Source: Chloroflexota bacterium (lineage in GTDB: Bacteria > Chloroflexota > Anaerolineae > B4-G1 > SLSP01). Taken from it: a DNA stretch of 34,139 bases. The stretch is from contig JAKJAC010000017.1 of assembly GCA_022707705.1 (NCBI GenBank), positions 352-34,490 of the forward strand, written 5' to 3'. Below are positions 23,523 through 33,044 of the stretch, piece by piece; the first letter of the stretch is position 1, and every line of letters begins with the position of its first letter. The notes under the pieces are model-generated. The model did not search any database and was not told the DNA's origin. It worked only from the letters and a program-made list of their open reading frames with translations. A program made the position numbers and the translations under genes.

Positions 23523-24650
23523 ATGGAAACACAAGGCCTGGTTGTCCTCAACGCACAGCTGGTCTCAGGTGCTGCCTCATACCGCAGCGCTGGTATTCAT
23601 GCTTACATCGTCAACCTGCTACGCCAGCTTAAATTCGACGACAACTTACGGTATCTTGCGCTAACCGGTCCCGGAGCACTTCCAGAAGGTATTGCCATGC
23701 CGGTTCAACGGACGAAGCTTCCCACTCACCGTCCGCTGATCCGTATCCTATGGGAGCAAACCAGACTACCCTGGGAGCTAGTGCGCCTGCGAGCCAGCTT
23801 ACTGCATGCGCCCGCTTTTGTCGGACCATTATGGGCGCCTTGCCCGCAGATCCTCACCATCCTTGATCTCGGCTTCTTGCGCCACCCAGAATTCTTTCGC
23901 CGGGGGAACCGCACCTATTTGCACCTGCTAACACGGCTCTCCGCCAAACGAGCTGCGGCAATCATCACCATCTCCAAGTTCTCGGCGCAGGAGATTAGCG
24001 CATTGCTAGGTAGTGCTCCAGAACGCATCCACGTCATCTACCCGGGTGTTGAAGCCCGTTTCCGTCCCCTCCCCCCCGCGGAAGTGCTGCGCTTCCGCCA
24101 AGAGCAGAACCTGCCCGAGCGGTTCATTCTCTATCTGGGGACTCTGGAACCGCGCAAGAACCTGATCACCCTGATCCACGCTTTTGCACGCTTGCGGGAC
24201 CCAGAGCTCCATTTGGTATTAGCCGGAGGCAAAGGGTGGCTTTATGAACCGCTTTTCGCCGAGGTGGAGCGCTTGGGGCTGAACGATCGGGTGCACTTTG
24301 CGGGTTATGTACCCGCCGAAACTCAAACACTCTGGTATAATGCAGCTACCATGTTGGCATATCTTTCGAGCTACGAAGGTTTCGGCTTACCCGTCGTGGA
24401 AGCCTTAGCCTGTGGTACACCGGTGGTTGCAGCTAATAGCAGCTCGCTGCCAGAAGCTGCCGGCGATGCCGCCCTGTTGGCGCCCCCGCATGATGTGGAG
24501 GCCATTGTCGCCAGTATGGAACAAGTTCTGAGTGACGCTGCCTTACGGGAATCGTTGCGCGAGCGAGGACTGAGACATGCCGCGCACTTCAACTGGCAGA
24601 CCGTTGCACAACAGACTGCCACAATCTATCGCTCTCTGGTAAAACAATGA
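23523..24650 (+). CDS. GT4-family glycosyltransferase
   Basis: 375-residue GT-B fold glycosyltransferase that transfers a sugar from a nucleotide donor, probably onto a lipid- or polysaccharide-linked acceptor. N-terminal acceptor domain begins LVVLNAQLVSG; the donor domain has ERFILYLGTLEPRKNLITLI and the nucleotide-sugar site SYEGFGLPVVEALACGTPVV with ESLPEA-like SSLPEAAGDA. Start: ATG 23523 was chosen over an upstream in-frame ATG at 23445 because the promoter -10 lies between them and the family start fits METQGLVVLN. The stop overlaps the next gene by 4 bp. It opens an envelope-polysaccharide unit. Confidence 0.9.
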   Translation: METQGLVVLNAQLVSGAASYRSAGIHAYIVNLLRQLKFDDNLRYLALTGPGALPEGIAMPVQRTKLPTHRPLIRILWEQTRLPWELVRLRASLLHAPAFVGPLWAPCPQILTILDLGFLRHPEFFRRGNRTYLHLLTRLSAKRAAAIITISKFSAQEISALLGSAPERIHVIYPGVEARFRPLPPAEVLRFRQEQNLPERFILYLGTLEPRKNLITLIHAFARLRDPELHLVLAGGKGWLYEPLFAEVERLGLNDRVHFAGYVPAETQTLWYNAATMLAYLSSYEGFGLPVVEALACGTPVVAANSSSLPEAAGDAALLAPPHDVEAIVASMEQVLSDAALRESLRERGLRHAAHFNWQTVAQQTATIYRSLVKQ

Positions 24651-26055
24651 AAACTCCAAAAAGTGTTTGCACCATAAATGAGAGTGTGAAACGCAAGGAG
24701 TCCAGTCCCTGGTGGGTCATACCGCTGGATATTCTCATGATCCTGTTGGGACTCCTACTGGCTTATGAGCTGCGCCATCGCCTGCAATGGTTTGTAGAGG
24801 TCATTTACGACGCGCCGCTCACTGCCTACCTGCCCTTTGGTATTCTGTTTGTGGGGCTTATCCCCAGCATCCTCTGGTTCGAGGGCGCCTATCGCCGGTG
24901 GCGAGGACGGAGCTGGTTGGACCATGTCTACCGGATCATCAACGCCGTCACTACCACGCTGGTCTTGATCCTTGCCTATGCCTTTATCTCTCGTCCTCTG
25001 GTTTACTCCAGGCTTCTATTGCTCGAAGCTGGTGTGGGCATCATCCTGCTCATGTCGCTCGACCGGCTGATAGTGCTACTCATTCAAAAGCATCTCTTCC
25101 GAAAAGGAATTGGGGTGAAGCGCGTTATCATCGTGGGCGCGGGCGAAGTCGGCCGGCGGGTCATCCGCACGATCGTCGCCCAACCCCAACTAGGGTATCA
25201 CATTGTTGGCTATGTGGATGACAATCCAGCCAAAGGCGAAAAGGAAATCGGACGTATCAAGGGCTTAGGTCCCGTGGACAGTCTGGCTGATATCATTGCC
25301 ACCGACGAATTCTCAACGTACTGCGGGAATGTGAGCGCCGTCAGGTCATCGCCCGCATCGTCCCTGACCTGTTTCAACTTAGCCTGAGCCAGGTCGAGGT
25401 AAGCGATCTGGGCGGAGTACCACTAATCAGCGTGCACGAAATCGCTTTCAGCCGGACGGCGCTAATCTTCAAACGCGCCTTCGACATCGTTGGCGCTGTA
25501 TTGGGATTCATCGTAGGTGCGCCGTTGCTAGCACTCATCGCCATCGCCATCAAAATTGACTCGCCAGGCCCGGTATTCTTCAAGCAAATCCGGGTTGGCA
25601 AAGATCACCGGCAATTCCAAATTATCAAATTCCGCTCCATGTATACAGGCGCCGAAAGTGAACAGCAGAAATTGCTGGAGCTCAATGAAGCCGATGGACC
25701 CTTGTTCAAGATTCGTGACGATCCGCGCCTTACCAGAGTCGGGGCTTTTCTACGGCGCACCAGCCTGGATGAATTGCCCCAGCTGTTCAATGTTCTGGCA
25801 GGAGAAATGAGCCTCGTGGGTCCCCGTCCACCCGTGCCCACTGAAGTGGCTTGCTATCAACCCTGGCATCTGCAGCGACTTGGGGTACCTGGAGGCATGA
25901 CGGGGCTCTGGCAGGTCAGTGGGCGCAGCGAGCTCACTTTTGACGAAATGGTGTTACTGGATATCTACTATATTGAACATTGGTCACCATGGCTCGATTT
26001 ACAAATCCTCCTGCGTACGGTTCCCAATGTTTTGTTGGCTAAAGGGGCTTATTAG
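24647..26055 (+). pseudogene. Polyprenyl glycosylphosphotransferase, disrupted by frameshift/deletion
   Basis: Sugar-phosphate priming transferase (WcaJ/EpsE-type) in two frames. The first frame (24647-25387) has four membrane segments and a Rossmann-like domain with VIIVGAGEVGRRVIRTI, diverging after DSLADIIATDE near 25309. The second frame picks up at RILNVLRECERRQVIARIV (about 25304 on), then VPDLFQLSLSQVEVSDLGG, and the full catalytic domain: [61 protein letters not shown]. In relatives about 14-17 residues (of the type xDEVIIxLPWxxH) sit between these points, so about 3n+1 bases seem missing. The catalytic half could still be made from GTG 25432, but no ribosome site is seen. Either a real lesion or an assembly error at the GAATTC at 25307-25312. 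Confidence 0.85.
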
Positions 26056-28252: not shown

Positions 28253-28933
28253 ATGCGCGCGTTACTGATCTCGCAAGATCCGGATGAAGCAGCCATTCTG
28301 TCGCTGATTCTTCAGCGCGCCGGCATGGCGGTCAATCGCTCAACGGATTTGGAGCACGCGCTGCAAAATCAGCCAGAATCGCCGGCAGATTTGATTCTGT
28401 TGGCAATGCCAGCAGGTTCGCCATTGGTGCAGGTCCGCATGATTCGAGCACAAACGGAAACGCCGTTGGTGCTTGTCGCCGAACAGATAGAGGAAGCCGT
28501 TCACGCCTTGCTGCTGGAATCGGGCGCCGATCTGGTGGTAACCCGCCCCTTTGGCGCTCGTTTGTTGATTTCTCAGTTACGCGCACTGCTCCGCCGCGCT
28601 GCAGGGTTGCCCTTCTTCACCCTGCCCACCCTCAGCATCAGCGATCTGACCCTGGACCCAGCGACGCGTACCGTTCAAATCGGAAATCAAGGACCCAAAC
28701 GCCTCACACAGCTGGAATTCCGGTTACTCTATGCACTCATGATCCACCGCAGTCAGGTATTGCCGGCAGAGATTCTGGTCGAACAAGTTTGGGGCTACAC
28801 GGGCGAGGGAGAGAGAGATTTGGTTCGCGGGCTCATCAGACGCCTTCGCGCCAAAGTTGAACCCGATCCTAGCCAACCGCGTTTTATCCTCACGATTCCG
28901 GGAATTGGCTACACCTTCGACCCACAGGACTGA
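28253..28933 (+). CDS. OmpR/PhoB-family response regulator with degenerate receiver
   Basis: 226-residue DNA-binding regulator. Residues 1-112 have the receiver fold but lack key residues: the phosphoacceptor position reads DLILLAMPA (Ala51 where Asp is needed), the switch Lys is Arg (TRPFGARLL, Arg98), and the acidic N-terminal pair is reduced. Residues 125-226 are an intact winged-helix domain (RLTQLEFRLLYALM, VLPAEILVEQVWGYTGEGE, RDLVRGLIRRLRAKVE, TIPGIGYTF). It should bind DNA but probably not by classical phosphorylation. Start ATG 28253 fits the receiver's first strand; its ribosome site is weak. It follows psuG by 29 bp; the large histidine kinase starts 670 bp downstream. Confidence 0.88.
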   Translation: MRALLISQDPDEAAILSLILQRAGMAVNRSTDLEHALQNQPESPADLILLAMPAGSPLVQVRMIRAQTETPLVLVAEQIEEAVHALLLESGADLVVTRPFGARLLISQLRALLRRAAGLPFFTLPTLSISDLTLDPATRTVQIGNQGPKRLTQLEFRLLYALMIHRSQVLPAEILVEQVWGYTGEGERDLVRGLIRRLRAKVEPDPSQPRFILTIPGIGYTFDPQD

Positions 28934-28941
28934 AGCAGCGC

Positions 28942-29008
28942 ATAACTGTGACCGGCAAGGGCAAATCGTAACGAAAGTCACACATGGTGTGCGTTTTGCC
29001 ACAGTTAT
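28942..29008 (+). repeat. Nested inverted repeats downstream of the response regulator
   Basis: An outer pair ATAACTGTG (28942-28950) / CACAGTTAT (29000-29008) encloses an inner hairpin AACG-(5 nt)-CACAC-atg-GTGTG-CGTT. It could be a structured RNA leader of the LysW-like gene, an mRNA 3' end, or regulator binding sites. I see no strong promoter in the 28934-29157 gap; TATGAT at 29046 lacks a partner -35. Confidence 0.4.
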
Positions 29009-29157
29009 TGCATGGTTTTAACACAAGTTTTACACAGGTCTCCTCTATGATGCAAGCGAGACTTGAATGCCAGGAACTTGCAAGATAAGCCTGACAAGAA
29101 AGCTATCATTGCGGAGCGCCGCACCGTACAGGGAAACGAAGGTGGAGGAGGTTGAAT

Positions 29158-29370
29158 ATGGCTTCGGCAGTATGCCCGTCCTGCGGAGAAACGATCAAAG
29201 TCACAGGACAAGTCAAAATTGGGCGGTATATCACATGCCCGATTTGTGATGAGATGCTTGAGATTATTGATGTCAACCCAATCGAACTGGATTGGGCTTT
29301 CTACGACGATGAGGATGATGAAGACGATCTGGATTACGATGAGCGGGATGATGACGATTGGGACAATTAG
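29158..29370 (+). CDS. LysW-like zinc mini-protein with poly-acidic tail
   Basis: 70-residue protein. A zinc-ribbon-like core has Cys6-x2-Cys9 and Cys27-x2-Cys30, then EIIDVNPIELDWAFYD, closely resembling the LysW/ArgW amino-group carrier that holds lysine and arginine intermediates. The tail (about 50-70) is almost all Asp/Glu and ends DDDDWDN; true carriers end EDWGE and attach the substrate to the terminal Glu. No lysX, lysZ or lysK-type gene is adjacent. So it may be a LysW paralogue with another role. ATG 29158 follows GGTGGAGGAGG; an in-frame TTG two codons upstream is less likely. It has its own terminator. Confidence 0.82.
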   Translation: MASAVCPSCGETIKVTGQVKIGRYITCPICDEMLEIIDVNPIELDWAFYDDEDDEDDLDYDERDDDDWDN

Positions 29371-29425
29371 AGTGAGCTGAGCTGCTTGAACTATAGACCA
29401 AGAGAATCGGGGTCATAATTCTCGG

Positions 29426-29456
29426 ACGGTCCGTTGTTATTGCAACGGACCGTTTT
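29426..29456 (+). terminator. Intrinsic terminator after the LysW-like gene
   Basis: 11-bp perfect stem ACGGTCCGTTG/CAACGGACCGT with a 6-nt loop, followed by TTTTGTTA. It separates the mini-protein gene from the histidine kinase gene. Confidence 0.85.
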
Positions 29457-29517
29457 GTTAGCCTCAAAACCAGCTCAGAATCCTACTGGAGAGGAGATAG
29501 ATTAACCGTTGTTGTGC

Positions 29518-29603: not shown

Positions 29604-32600
29604 ATGGGGCTTGAGTACACCTGGTGGGTTACACCATCACGCTTCACATTGGTTTTTCCCCAGACACTGCCAGGTATAGCGCTGTTTGGTCTTTACACGC
29701 TTGTCTCCCTATGGCTGTTGTACCGGCGCCGCGCTGATTTTCGCGCCCTATCACCCTCTAAGATAGGGCTTTTCATATTCGGGTTGGTATGCATCGGTTT
29801 GACCGCTGGCGTATCCGTGCTGGCAACCTCGCCCCAAAGCATCATCCAGGTAGTACCGATTACGCAGCTCACTTATCCCCCGGCAATCTCTTTGATTGCC
29901 CTGAGCATACTTTCCGCCGTTGCTATCTGGCTTGGACCCGGTCCTGGACTCACTGCAGGGCTGGTCTTGGGAATAGCGCAAGCACGGTTTTCGCTACTTT
30001 CCGCCAACGATATCTTTGCGTATGCGGCATGGGGTTTGTGTGCAGGGCTATTGATACACCAACCATACGTCGGCACATTCTTCAGAATCATCCGCATACC
30101 GGCGCTGGCTATCAGTACCGGCACATTTGTACTCCTGATGCTGTTGGGCTTCAACCGCCTGGCTGAAACTATCCCGCCGCTCGGTGTAGGCGCCTTTGAG
30201 CAATTGTTGGGACCCTTCAACATGGGATGGCGGTTATGGTTAGTCTGTGGAGTGGGCGTGGGTCTCTTCTTCACCTCAATATGGGTGCTTGCGCCAAACC
30301 TGCGCCCAAACACCCGCGCCGATGTCATCCCATTAACGCGACGCAGCCTGCGCGCTCGTTTCCTAATAGCCCTCATTCCACTGATTGTTTGCAGTTTTAT
30401 ACTTTCTCTATTGATGGTGACTAATAGCGCCATGAAGCTGGCTCTAAACCAGGCTATGGGTGAACTTGACCGCAGCGCCACCATTGCCGGTGAAGGGATT
30501 GCACATTTCAGAGTCTCGGGTCGCAACCTGCTAGAAAAATTCTCCACCGAGTCAGCGCTGATGGATCCAGAATTGCGGCAGACAACTCTGGAGGCTAACC
30601 GGCAGCTGGTACCGTTCTTCCGGGAAATGCTCCTTACGGAGGCAGAAGGGCAGGTCGTTGCCATTGCCCCGCAGGACACCACCGATTCCGATCTTAGTCC
30701 TGAAGAAACGCTGCTAGTAAAAAAAGCCTTGCAGTTCGGCATGTCTGACGAAGTGCAATTGATCAAACTGCCATCCGGTGCAGTCCGCATGACCTTCGTT
30801 CACCCATTGTCGAACGGACAAGAAGAAAAAGCCACGGGGGCACTTCTGGGACGCGTGCAACTGGATATCAATCCGGAAATACAACGTGTTTTGACGGCGT
30901 TGCAGGCTGCACAAGGCGTCGGCGAGGGTTTCCTGGTAGACGATCGAGACCTCATCGTCTTACACCCAAACCCAGATGTTGTAGGACGCCCATGGCGTAC
31001 CAATCCCAATGCACTAACATGGGAAGTGGGATCCGGACTGGCATACCGGGATCTATCCGCCTCCAACAATGAATCTACGCTATTCTATATACGAGATATC
31101 GAAGGTACACCTTTCACAGTAGTCATACAATTGCCCTACGCCGTGGTTTTTGAGATGTCCAGGTCCATCTTCGGACCCCTGTTACTATCACAGTTGCCCT
31201 TTGGATTTCTGCTATTGCTCATCGTGCCCTTCCTTGTCTCACGAATTACACAACCATTGCACATGCTGGCGACCGCTACAGACCAAATCGCCGAAGGCAA
31301 CCTGGGGATTCCAGTTCATATCTCTGGAGATGATGAAGTTGCCCAACTCGGTTCAGCCTTCGAACAGATGCGATTGCGTCTCAAAGATCGCCTCAACGAC
31401 CTTTCGCTGCTGCTGCGTATTTCGCAATCCGTCTCAGCCACGCTCAATCTGAATGAGGGCGTGCCATTAATTCTCGAAGGTGTTTTGGAGGAGACCGGCG
31501 CCGCCGTAGCACGCCTCATCCTTTTGGAAAACGATGAACGAACGCAGGTCTTCAACACCGGGATCAATGATCCCGCATTCCAGGGCTTAGATCGGGCGCT
31601 GGTCTCCATCGTTTCGCGACGGCGCGACCCCTTCATTGAACAAGACTTGCCTGGCAGCAATGCGAAAGATATCGCGCACAGCCCATTGCGCAGCATTGCG
31701 GCTTTCCCCGTGCGACTCCAGAACCGTGTGGTTGCCATCCTGTGGGTTGGAGCCTTGAAAACACAGGCCTTCGATGAAGCAGGGGTACACTTTCTAAACA
31801 CGCTGGCAAATCAAGCGGCGGTGCTAGTGGAGAACATTCGGCTCTTCGAGGCAACTGAGGGGGGGCGGCAGCGACTCGCCGCCATCCTGGCAAGCACCAC
31901 TGATGCCATCATGGTCATTGATCATGAGCGCCGGTTGTTGCTCATCAACCCGGCAGCACAGACGCTACTGCAGCTTAATGAGCTCTCTTATGGACGCCCC
32001 ATCGGTTCACTCAACCTGCCCCAGCCCATTCTCGAGGCGGTGGCGCGGTTGGGAGAAGATGCGACGCATATACCGCCGACGGTGGAATTCTCCCTATCAG
32101 ATAGACGTACGTTTAACACCAACATTGCTCCAATTAAAGGGTTAGCGACCACCAAAACCCCTTCTGGCTCAGAAACACAGGTTGCCGGATGGGTTGCAGT
32201 GATGCGTGATGTCACGCATTTCAAAGAGCTCGATGAAATGAAGACCGACTTCGTCTCCACGGTGTCGCACGACTTGCGTGCGCCGCTCACTTTCATGCGC
32301 GGCTATGTGACGATGCTCAACATGGTCGGTGAATTGAACGACAAGCAGCAGGAATATCAAGGGCGCATTCTGGAAGGCATCGAGCAGATGAGTGCGCTGA
32401 TTGACGACCTCCTGAATTTGCGACGTATCGAAGCCGGCCTTGGCATCCGTCAAGAACCATGCCGCCTGGGTCTGGTCTTATTGGAAGCTGTAGACCTTAT
32501 GCGCGCCCGCGCTGCGGCTAAGGGTGTGACCTTGCGTCTCGAACCAGCGCGTCCCATCACCACAGAGGCGCGGCTAGAACAAAGCCGACCACAAGTCAAA

Positions 32601-33044
32601 GAGGATGCGCCAGGCAACACCGAGAGCGGAACAGGCGCCGCGCTGACACAGCGAGCATCAGCAACAGTCATCGGTGATCGCACATTGCTGCGCCAAGCCA
32701 TCGGCAATCTGGTGGACAACGCTATCAAATATACCCCTACCGGCGGACTGGTAAGCGTAGGTATGGATTTGAGTGAAAATGTCGCTGTGGTACGCGTCAG
32801 CGATACTGGAATTGGCATCACGCCAGAGAATCAAGTGCGGCTCTTCGAGAAATTCTACCGCATCAAGCGTCGCGAAACCACCGATATCTCTGGAACCGGT
32901 CTGGGACTGGCTTTGGTTAAATCCATTGTCGAACGCCATCAAGGGCGCGTATGGCTGGAGAGTGAATTGAACAGGGGGTCGACGTTTTATATTGCATTGC
33001 CGCTGCAGTCAGCCACAAGCAGCGAGGAACACACCCCACAATAA
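29604..33044 (+). CDS. Multi-domain sensor histidine kinase (membrane, Cache-like, HAMP, GAF, PAS, HisKA, HATPase)
   Basis: 1146-residue sensor kinase. Residues 1-232 hold about six to seven membrane segments; another at 250-272 leads to an extracytoplasmic Cache-like sensor (about 275-515); a segment at 523-547 is followed by a HAMP domain (about 548-600), a GAF domain (about 610-750) and a PAS domain (758-875). The HisKA domain has phosphoacceptor His889 in STVSHDLRAPLTFMRGY. The ATPase domain has N-box NLVDNAIKY, DTGIGI and GTGLGLALVKSIVERH. A flexible, Gln/Glu/Thr-rich insert (about 985-1020) parts HisKA and the ATPase. All kinase motifs are intact. The nearby response regulator lacks a phosphoacceptor, so its partner is likely elsewhere. 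Confidence 0.93.
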   Translation: MGLEYTWWVTPSRFTLVFPQTLPGIALFGLYTLVSLWLLYRRRADFRALSPSKIGLFIFGLVCIGLTAGVSVLATSPQSIIQVVPITQLTYPPAISLIALSILSAVAIWLGPGPGLTAGLVLGIAQARFSLLSANDIFAYAAWGLCAGLLIHQPYVGTFFRIIRIPALAISTGTFVLLMLLGFNRLAETIPPLGVGAFEQLLGPFNMGWRLWLVCGVGVGLFFTSIWVLAPNLRPNTRADVIPLTRRSLRARFLIALIPLIVCSFILSLLMVTNSAMKLALNQAMGELDRSATIAGEGIAHFRVSGRNLLEKFSTESALMDPELRQTTLEANRQLVPFFREMLLTEAEGQVVAIAPQDTTDSDLSPEETLLVKKALQFGMSDEVQLIKLPSGAVRMTFVHPLSNGQEEKATGALLGRVQLDINPEIQRVLTALQAAQGVGEGFLVDDRDLIVLHPNPDVVGRPWRTNPNALTWEVGSGLAYRDLSASNNESTLFYIRDIEGTPFTVVIQLPYAVVFEMSRSIFGPLLLSQLPFGFLLLLIVPFLVSRITQPLHMLATATDQIAEGNLGIPVHISGDDEVAQLGSAFEQMRLRLKDRLNDLSLLLRISQSVSATLNLNEGVPLILEGVLEETGAAVARLILLENDERTQVFNTGINDPAFQGLDRALVSIVSRRRDPFIEQDLPGSNAKDIAHSPLRSIAAFPVRLQNRVVAILWVGALKTQAFDEAGVHFLNTLANQAAVLVENIRLFEATEGGRQRLAAILASTTDAIMVIDHERRLLLINPAAQTLLQLNELSYGRPIGSLNLPQPILEAVARLGEDATHIPPTVEFSLSDRRTFNTNIAPIKGLATTKTPSGSETQVAGWVAVMRDVTHFKELDEMKTDFVSTVSHDLRAPLTFMRGYVTMLNMVGELNDKQQEYQGRILEGIEQMSALIDDLLNLRRIEAGLGIRQEPCRLGLVLLEAVDLMRARAAAKGVTLRLEPARPITTEARLEQSRPQVKEDAPGNTESGTGAALTQRASATVIGDRTLLRQAIGNLVDNAIKYTPTGGLVSVGMDLSENVAVVRVSDTGIGITPENQVRLFEKFYRIKRRETTDISGTGLGLALVKSIVERHQGRVWLESELNRGSTFYIALPLQSATSSEEHTPQ

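Follow-up and report, generated by a model that had tools for sequence, protein, structure and literature searches.

Carrying amino acids is, to our knowledge, the only role on record for LysW, and a small gene of an Anaerolineae bacterium raises the question of what a LysW-like protein might do outside that role. The gene, lysWt, encodes a tailed LysW-like protein (LysWt) and lies in the 34,139-nucleotide stretch of DNA analysed here (the window), which belongs to a draft genome (G000) of 4.8 Mb in 456 contigs, 78% complete. The strongest clues to LysWt are an upstream regulator gene and the putative operator between the two genes (Table 1), both absent from the original prediction, which had been made from the sequence alone. 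Taken as a whole, the reading preferred here, namely that LysWt is a non-carrier LysW paralogue that forms the main output of this regulator and acts by protein contact, has about an even chance of being correct.

Table 1. Features of the lysWt locus, in window coordinates
Feature	Position	Strand	Remarks
OmpR/PhoB-type response regulator	28253..28933	+	pseudo-receiver and winged-helix DNA-binding domain
Four 11-bp-phased repeats: TTTTGCCACAG TTATTGCATGG TTTTAACACAA GTTTTACACAG	28994..29037	+	putative regulator operator
-10-like TATGAT	29046..29051	+	8 nt past last repeat; by inspection
Shine-Dalgarno AGGAGG	29146..29151	+	precedes LysWt ORF; kept in genus alignment
LysWt ORF (tailed LysW-like protein)	29158..29370	+	70 aa plus stop
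LysWt layout			core with the zinc ribbon (about residues 1-48), then acidic aromatic tail (49-70)
Terminator-like hairpin, then TTTTGTT	29426..29459	+	z -6.0 for 29405-29470
Sensor histidine kinase	29604..33044	+	HAMP, GAF, PAS, HisKA, HATPase_c; dCache match under cut-off

The open reading frame (ORF) is real, with the start and end originally called; its translation runs from MASAVCPSCGE to DDDDWDN (full sequence, MASAVCPSCGETIKVTGQVKIGRYITCPICDEMLEIIDVNPIELDWAFYDDEDDEDDLDYDERDDDDWDN). Codons 1-49 differ from their counterparts in the same-genus genomes G001, G002 and G004 (L040, L041 and L039) by 16 synonymous changes and by no non-synonymous one, which marks lysWt as a functional gene and rules out a chance ORF; the comparison with the counterpart in G003 (L042) yields 11 synonymous changes and 1 non-synonymous change. 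Judging from these codons, purifying selection on the LysWt core is very strong. The predicted resemblance of the zinc-binding core to LysW is borne out. In particular, LysWt scores 34.5 bits against Pfam PF21344 (LysW; cut-off 27), the core of its AF2 model (41-row alignment) has a pLDDT of about 90, and the top five rows of the comparison with the PDB are all LysW structures (VIA-align Z 6.8-7.8; sixth row 3.9; best Foldseek E 1.5e-3), so that the zinc ribbon with two CxxC pairs required for the LysW fold is found by both Pfam and structure comparison. With LysW/ArgW (TIGR01206, PF21344; PDB 3WWL, 5K2M, 3VPB), LysWt shares the four-cysteine zinc ribbon, the fold, the P-x-x-LD strand after the ribbon, and acidic residues and Trp near the end. 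It differs from them in lacking the terminal EDWGE and its Glu, in scoring 25.4 bits against the NCBI equivalog TIGR01206 (under the cut-off of 53.2), in belonging to a genus without a LysX match, and in having a long acidic tail and a regulator as neighbour. The replacement of EDWGE by DDWDN, which had been noticed beforehand, is read directly in the translation. The poly-acidic tail also stands, but the figure of about 20 acidic residues was slightly high, as Asp and Glu account for 16 of the last 22 residues and for 23 residues of LysWt overall (computed pI 4.05). Rich in Asp, Glu, and Trp/Tyr/Phe and modelled at a pLDDT of 54-59, the tail is probably disordered.

LysWt had been described as an orphan without adjacent lysine/arginine carrier enzymes, and the wider search supports this description. 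No lysine/arginine pathway gene is recognised among the window ORFs, and a PF21344 search of G000 at E up to 10 gives 15 places, with only LysWt above the cut-off. A separate lysW with lysX, the alternative raised at the outset, is found neither in G000 nor in the four same-genus genomes, which have one LysW match apiece (94-99% identical to LysWt). LysX (TIGR02144, E<=1e-20) has no match in the five genus genomes or in G005, and it is present in 33 of 60 relatives; as the genus genomes are 78-93% complete, the absence of LysX and of a second LysW rests on the five drafts jointly. The idea that LysWt belongs to a split lysine/arginine operon is rejected, given that G000 yields neither a LysX match nor a second LysW above the cut-off. 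In the relatives, LysX matches adjoin canonical LysW (e.g., G056, G050, and G012), and none of the 21 close tailed LysW genes of the 60-genome sample lies beside a LysX match; G013 has both on one contig, approx. 15 kb apart. Elsewhere in the window (24647-26055), a sugar-transferase-like gene appears as two ORFs (246 and 207 aa), which are likely the result of a frameshift or an assembly error; in L041 and L042 the gene is a single 484-aa ORF.

Profile search places LysWt among tailed LysW proteins that form a family in Anaerolineae. In 396 genomes of the class, the search gives matches in 304, canonical and tailed proteins pooled. From 80 fetched regions and three further loci, 92 LysW-like ORFs were read, comprising 80 distinct tailed and 11 distinct canonical sequences, where canonical proteins end in DWGE and tailed ones in any other way; the regions were mostly picked from the best-scoring matches, several being deliberately canonical, and are not a random sample. 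The survey of tails and end residues called for by the original prediction gives 16 different terminal residues for the tailed proteins, Glu being found in 7 of 80. Tails are at least 40% acidic in 64 of 80 proteins (below 40% in 16) and contain an aromatic residue in 79 of 80; they resemble each other in composition, not in sequence, and the invariant columns of the family all fall within the core. Beyond the class, 20 weaker matches from a phylum sample were fetched; a LysW-like ORF is present in 11 of these loci and, by profile, absent from the other 9, and the only acidic tail of the LysWt kind among them belongs to L168, itself of the same class. One scan beyond the phylum, with LysWt as the single query, returned seven loci: five Anaerolineae/Chloroflexi counterparts of G001-G005 and two doubtful zinc fingers (L044, L045).

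Several variants of the LysW-like protein were met along the way. Six loci in phylum genomes outside the class (L160, L161, L162, L165, L166, and L173) encode a second LysW-like protein, the end of which (PESYA or PESYG) is conserved and not acidic. In family f21 (L097, L100, L102, and L112), tailed LysW proteins occur as tandem pairs, both behind the regulator, one member being acidic-tailed and the other ending basic (GRRRNGR, RRKSGR). In one frame of L143, an additional CxxC pair (rubredoxin-like by inspection) precedes a LysW-like domain and an acidic end. L224, in a genome without a LysW profile match (G357), holds a small ORF that resembles this frame, with an acidic tail, downstream of a regulator homologue.

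These data bear directly on the suggestion that LysWt may be used as a carrier. The E54A substitution in ArgW, which removes the attachment Glu of EDWGE, is reported to cause arginine auxotrophy (PMC10433800). In the tailed family, the acceptor of the carrier is gone, because the last position is taken by 16 different residues across the 80 distinct proteins and by Glu in only 7 of them; by this comparison of end residues, the carrier reading of LysWt fails its defining test, the terminal Glu. Together with the absence of a LysX match from the genus and of LysX from beside any of the 21 close tailed genes, this disfavours use as a carrier, and LysWt is very probably a non-carrier. The adaptor or mimic roles suggested as alternatives are candidates that fit the data.

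The regulator upstream of lysWt combines an OmpR-type output domain, the winged helix scoring 78.1 bits against PF00486, with a receiver that scores 30.0 bits against PF00072 (cut-off 30.2). It carries Ala at the phospho-Asp position and Arg in place of the conserved Lys. Among 36 aligned regulator rows (four regulators are counted twice, as two LysW follow each, and several rows come from one genus), the phospho-Asp position is occupied by Ala in 29, Ser in 4, Val in 2, and a gap in 1, so that the residue is absent from all 35 scorable rows, and the Lys position is Arg in 35 of 36. Because both positions are replaced, the protein is a pseudo-receiver regulator. It shares the missing phospho-Asp and the OmpR-type output with ChxR, an atypical member of the OmpR family, which reportedly binds a direct repeat, and it differs from ChxR in that its partner gene encodes a LysW-like protein.

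Regulator homologues recur beside tailed LysW genes. In 70 tailed loci (the near-duplicates L040 and L042 being left out), the distance to such a homologue is at most 1.5 kb in 33 and at most 4 kb in 36; the nearest match is always on the LysW strand and, of the 33 within 1.5 kb, 29 are upstream and 4 downstream. Where the upstream sequence spans 1.5 kb or more, the regulator is found within 1.5 kb in 28 of 59 tailed loci. No regulator lies within 4 kb of canonical LysW in 11 loci, some of which have little upstream sequence.

The two genes also occur together at the level of whole genomes. Among 60 relatives, the regulator (E<=1e-42) is found in 18 of the 21 with a close tailed LysW (profile A1 score of 79 bits or more, a narrow limit of our own choosing) vs 0 of the 39 others (Fisher 1.4e-12, a value that, like all co-occurrence p-values, is too small since the genomes are related); per genus, the counts are 11 of 12 with vs 0 of 28 without a close tailed LysW. 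Of the 21 close-homologue genomes, 18 come from the class profile search and three (G002, G015, and G023) from ORF reading; other relatives outside the class search were classed by the PF21344 scan. The three exceptions, G013, G018, and G020, all belong to genus g10 and have a tailed LysW without a regulator match, and the tailed proteins of family f3, which reach 76.5 bits (L061), likewise have no regulator match. The co-occurrence is not a matter of linkage only, because five genomes (G007, G016, G021, G023, and G059) have the two genes on separate contigs. In the 396 class genomes, the regulator is present in 65: in 33 of the 43 with a LysW profile match at E<=1e-18 and in 32 of the 353 others. 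A tailed LysW was read in 49 of these 65 genomes, the other 16 being without one among the proteins read. At 20 regulator loci picked for an absent, weak or unlinked LysW, an adjacent tailed LysW was found in only 4. In L225 and L226, the regulator homologue is followed by several TTTnnnACA boxes and then by a different small ORF (77 and 69 aa, respectively; the two look alike). The comparison thus points to a pairing of regulator and LysWt that is strong, yet not exclusive, because of the 4 of 20 picked loci and of L225 and L226; its strong form, an obligate pair, is rejected on the same grounds and because g10 has no regulator match.

The intergenic region between the regulator and lysWt is conserved across the genus and partly in G005. 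Its repeat stretch has a best 44-bp lag-11 self-match of 0.61, a value reached in 0 of 2000 base shuffles. With the half-site TTTnnnACA, which was chosen by eye after these sequences had been viewed, the number of matches per upstream region (regions shorter than 150 bases being dropped) is 1.06 for regulator-adjacent members (n = 33), 0.36 for the other tailed members (n = 45), 0.10 for canonical members (n = 10), and 0.03 for other-ORF controls (n = 541). Only 3 of the 33 regulator-adjacent members have a pair of exact half-sites with a spacing of 11, 22 or 33 bases, so that the case for phasing beyond the genus is built on looser matches and the mean value at lag 11 (0.434 vs 0.339-0.397 at other lags). 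Within the genus, the doubled half-site is found at the lysWt promoter in all five genomes and elsewhere only at one place in G000, an alike one in G002, and one further place in G002; the backward pattern, used as a control, has no match in these genomes. The doubled box is also present upstream of lysWt in G059, despite the unlinked regulator of that genome. No exact half-site is present upstream of lysWt in L047, L051, L052, L055, L057, L058, and L060. A consensus scan detects no sigma-70 promoter, and the hairpin downstream of lysWt does not figure in the list of a simple terminator scan. On this evidence from gene order, co-occurrence and repeats, there is good reason to expect that lysWt is regulated by the adjacent pseudo-receiver regulator.

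In the preferred reading, LysWt is a LysW paralogue that has lost the carrier function and the terminal Glu and gained an acidic aromatic tail. The phosphorylation-independent OmpR-type regulator would most likely bind the 11-bp-phased repeats just upstream of the lysWt promoter, and LysWt would be its main output. LysW docks on its enzymes, and the LysWt core may dock on a partner in the same way, while the acidic aromatic tail may bind a basic surface of that partner. That LysWt is such a protein-contact adaptor has a little under an even chance. The first-choice partner would be a nucleic-acid-binding protein; this might even be the regulator, which would create a feedback loop. This most specific version, in which the regulator activates one main promoter and LysWt, the product, is a protein ligand that binds back to the regulator and sets its activity, is unlikely. 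MirA, described as a small inhibitor of the atypical regulator Rem in Agrobacterium (PMC12632262), would provide a functional model should LysWt bind its regulator.

The acidity of the tail may also be taken to mean that LysWt is a nucleic-acid mimic, the tail filling the DNA-binding surface of the regulator, RNA polymerase or a similar protein. The 16 acidic residues in 22, the pI, the adjacency of a DNA-binding regulator, and tails alike in composition and unlike in sequence are all consistent with mimicry; however, the confinement of the invariant columns to the core and the basic ends (e.g., GRRRNGR) of some paralogues behind the same kind of regulator make it distinctly unlikely.

A second alternative keeps LysWt as a carrier, with the carboxylates of its tail loaded by a DDL-like ATP-grasp enzyme with a product of a lysine 2,3-aminomutase (KamA) pathway. 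Of the 70 tailed loci, 16 have KamA nearby, in 15 cases together with a DDL-like ATP-grasp gene; one such KamA, when tested, scored above the AblA cut-off, and KamA at 590 bits or more is present in 20 of the 21 relatives with a close tailed LysW vs 8 of the 39 others. The reciprocal look weakens this reading. At 20 KamA loci outside the window's family that were not fetched via LysW (a set that thus omits ten KamA loci found via LysW), DDL is adjacent in 20 and LysW in only 2; when those ten and seven more loci (no LysW) are included, LysW is present in 12 of 37. Another 13 KamA loci have no LysW nearby, and all of them except L128 (12 of 13) have DDL close by. KamA-DDL is therefore a module of its own that often meets LysWt. 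Moreover, KamA-DDL is on a different contig from LysWt in G000, and five f20 genomes with the regulator and a tailed LysW (G351, G394, G427, G480, and G496) have no KamA match at E<=1e-150, a threshold passed in 195 of 396 class genomes. As the tailed family also has no conserved acceptor residue, loading of this kind is improbable. The module itself comprises KamA with one to three D-Ala-D-Ala-ligase-like ATP-grasp genes (L050, L052, L059, L062, L126-L138, and L174-L193), sometimes with an HDAC-like hydrolase; the HDAC and a possible GNAT were named by inspection.

A role of LysWt as accessory to the neighbouring sensor kinase, instead of to the regulator, is quite improbable. The kinase, which lies downstream in the window, adjoins lysWt in genera g1, g2, and g10, and g10 retains this adjacency without a regulator match; however, among the loci compared, adjacency of this kinase (at least 40% identity) is limited to the window's family, a terminator-like hairpin separates lysWt from the kinase gene, and the regulator has no Asp to accept a phosphoryl group from a kinase. 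A zinc or metal store or buffer with a cation-binding tail, which the zinc-ribbon cysteines and polyacidic tail might suggest, is most improbable, as core conservation extends far past the cysteines and no metal-homeostasis gene is recognised in neighbour clusters common to at least 4 loci (names by inspection).

In the openly licensed PMC literature, as represented by titles and abstract openings, we found no recognisable tailed or regulator-linked LysW, nor a pairing of an atypical regulator with a LysW-like protein. LysW-like carriers are mentioned in encapsulin clusters, in a passage that does not concern the tailed family (PMC8346489). Tailed genes of the present kind should not be named 'lysine biosynthesis protein LysW'. 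The preferred reading, that LysWt is a non-carrier output of its regulator, concerns a pair that is directly testable, with a small soluble partner and an operator that is almost single-copy in the genus. If LysWt does bind back to its regulator, the two would make up a two-protein circuit free of phosphorylation, with a former amino-acid carrier now serving as a signalling protein. A large family in Anaerolineae that has kept the fold and lost the attachment residue, with an atypical regulator alongside, would be a clear case of a repurposed carrier.
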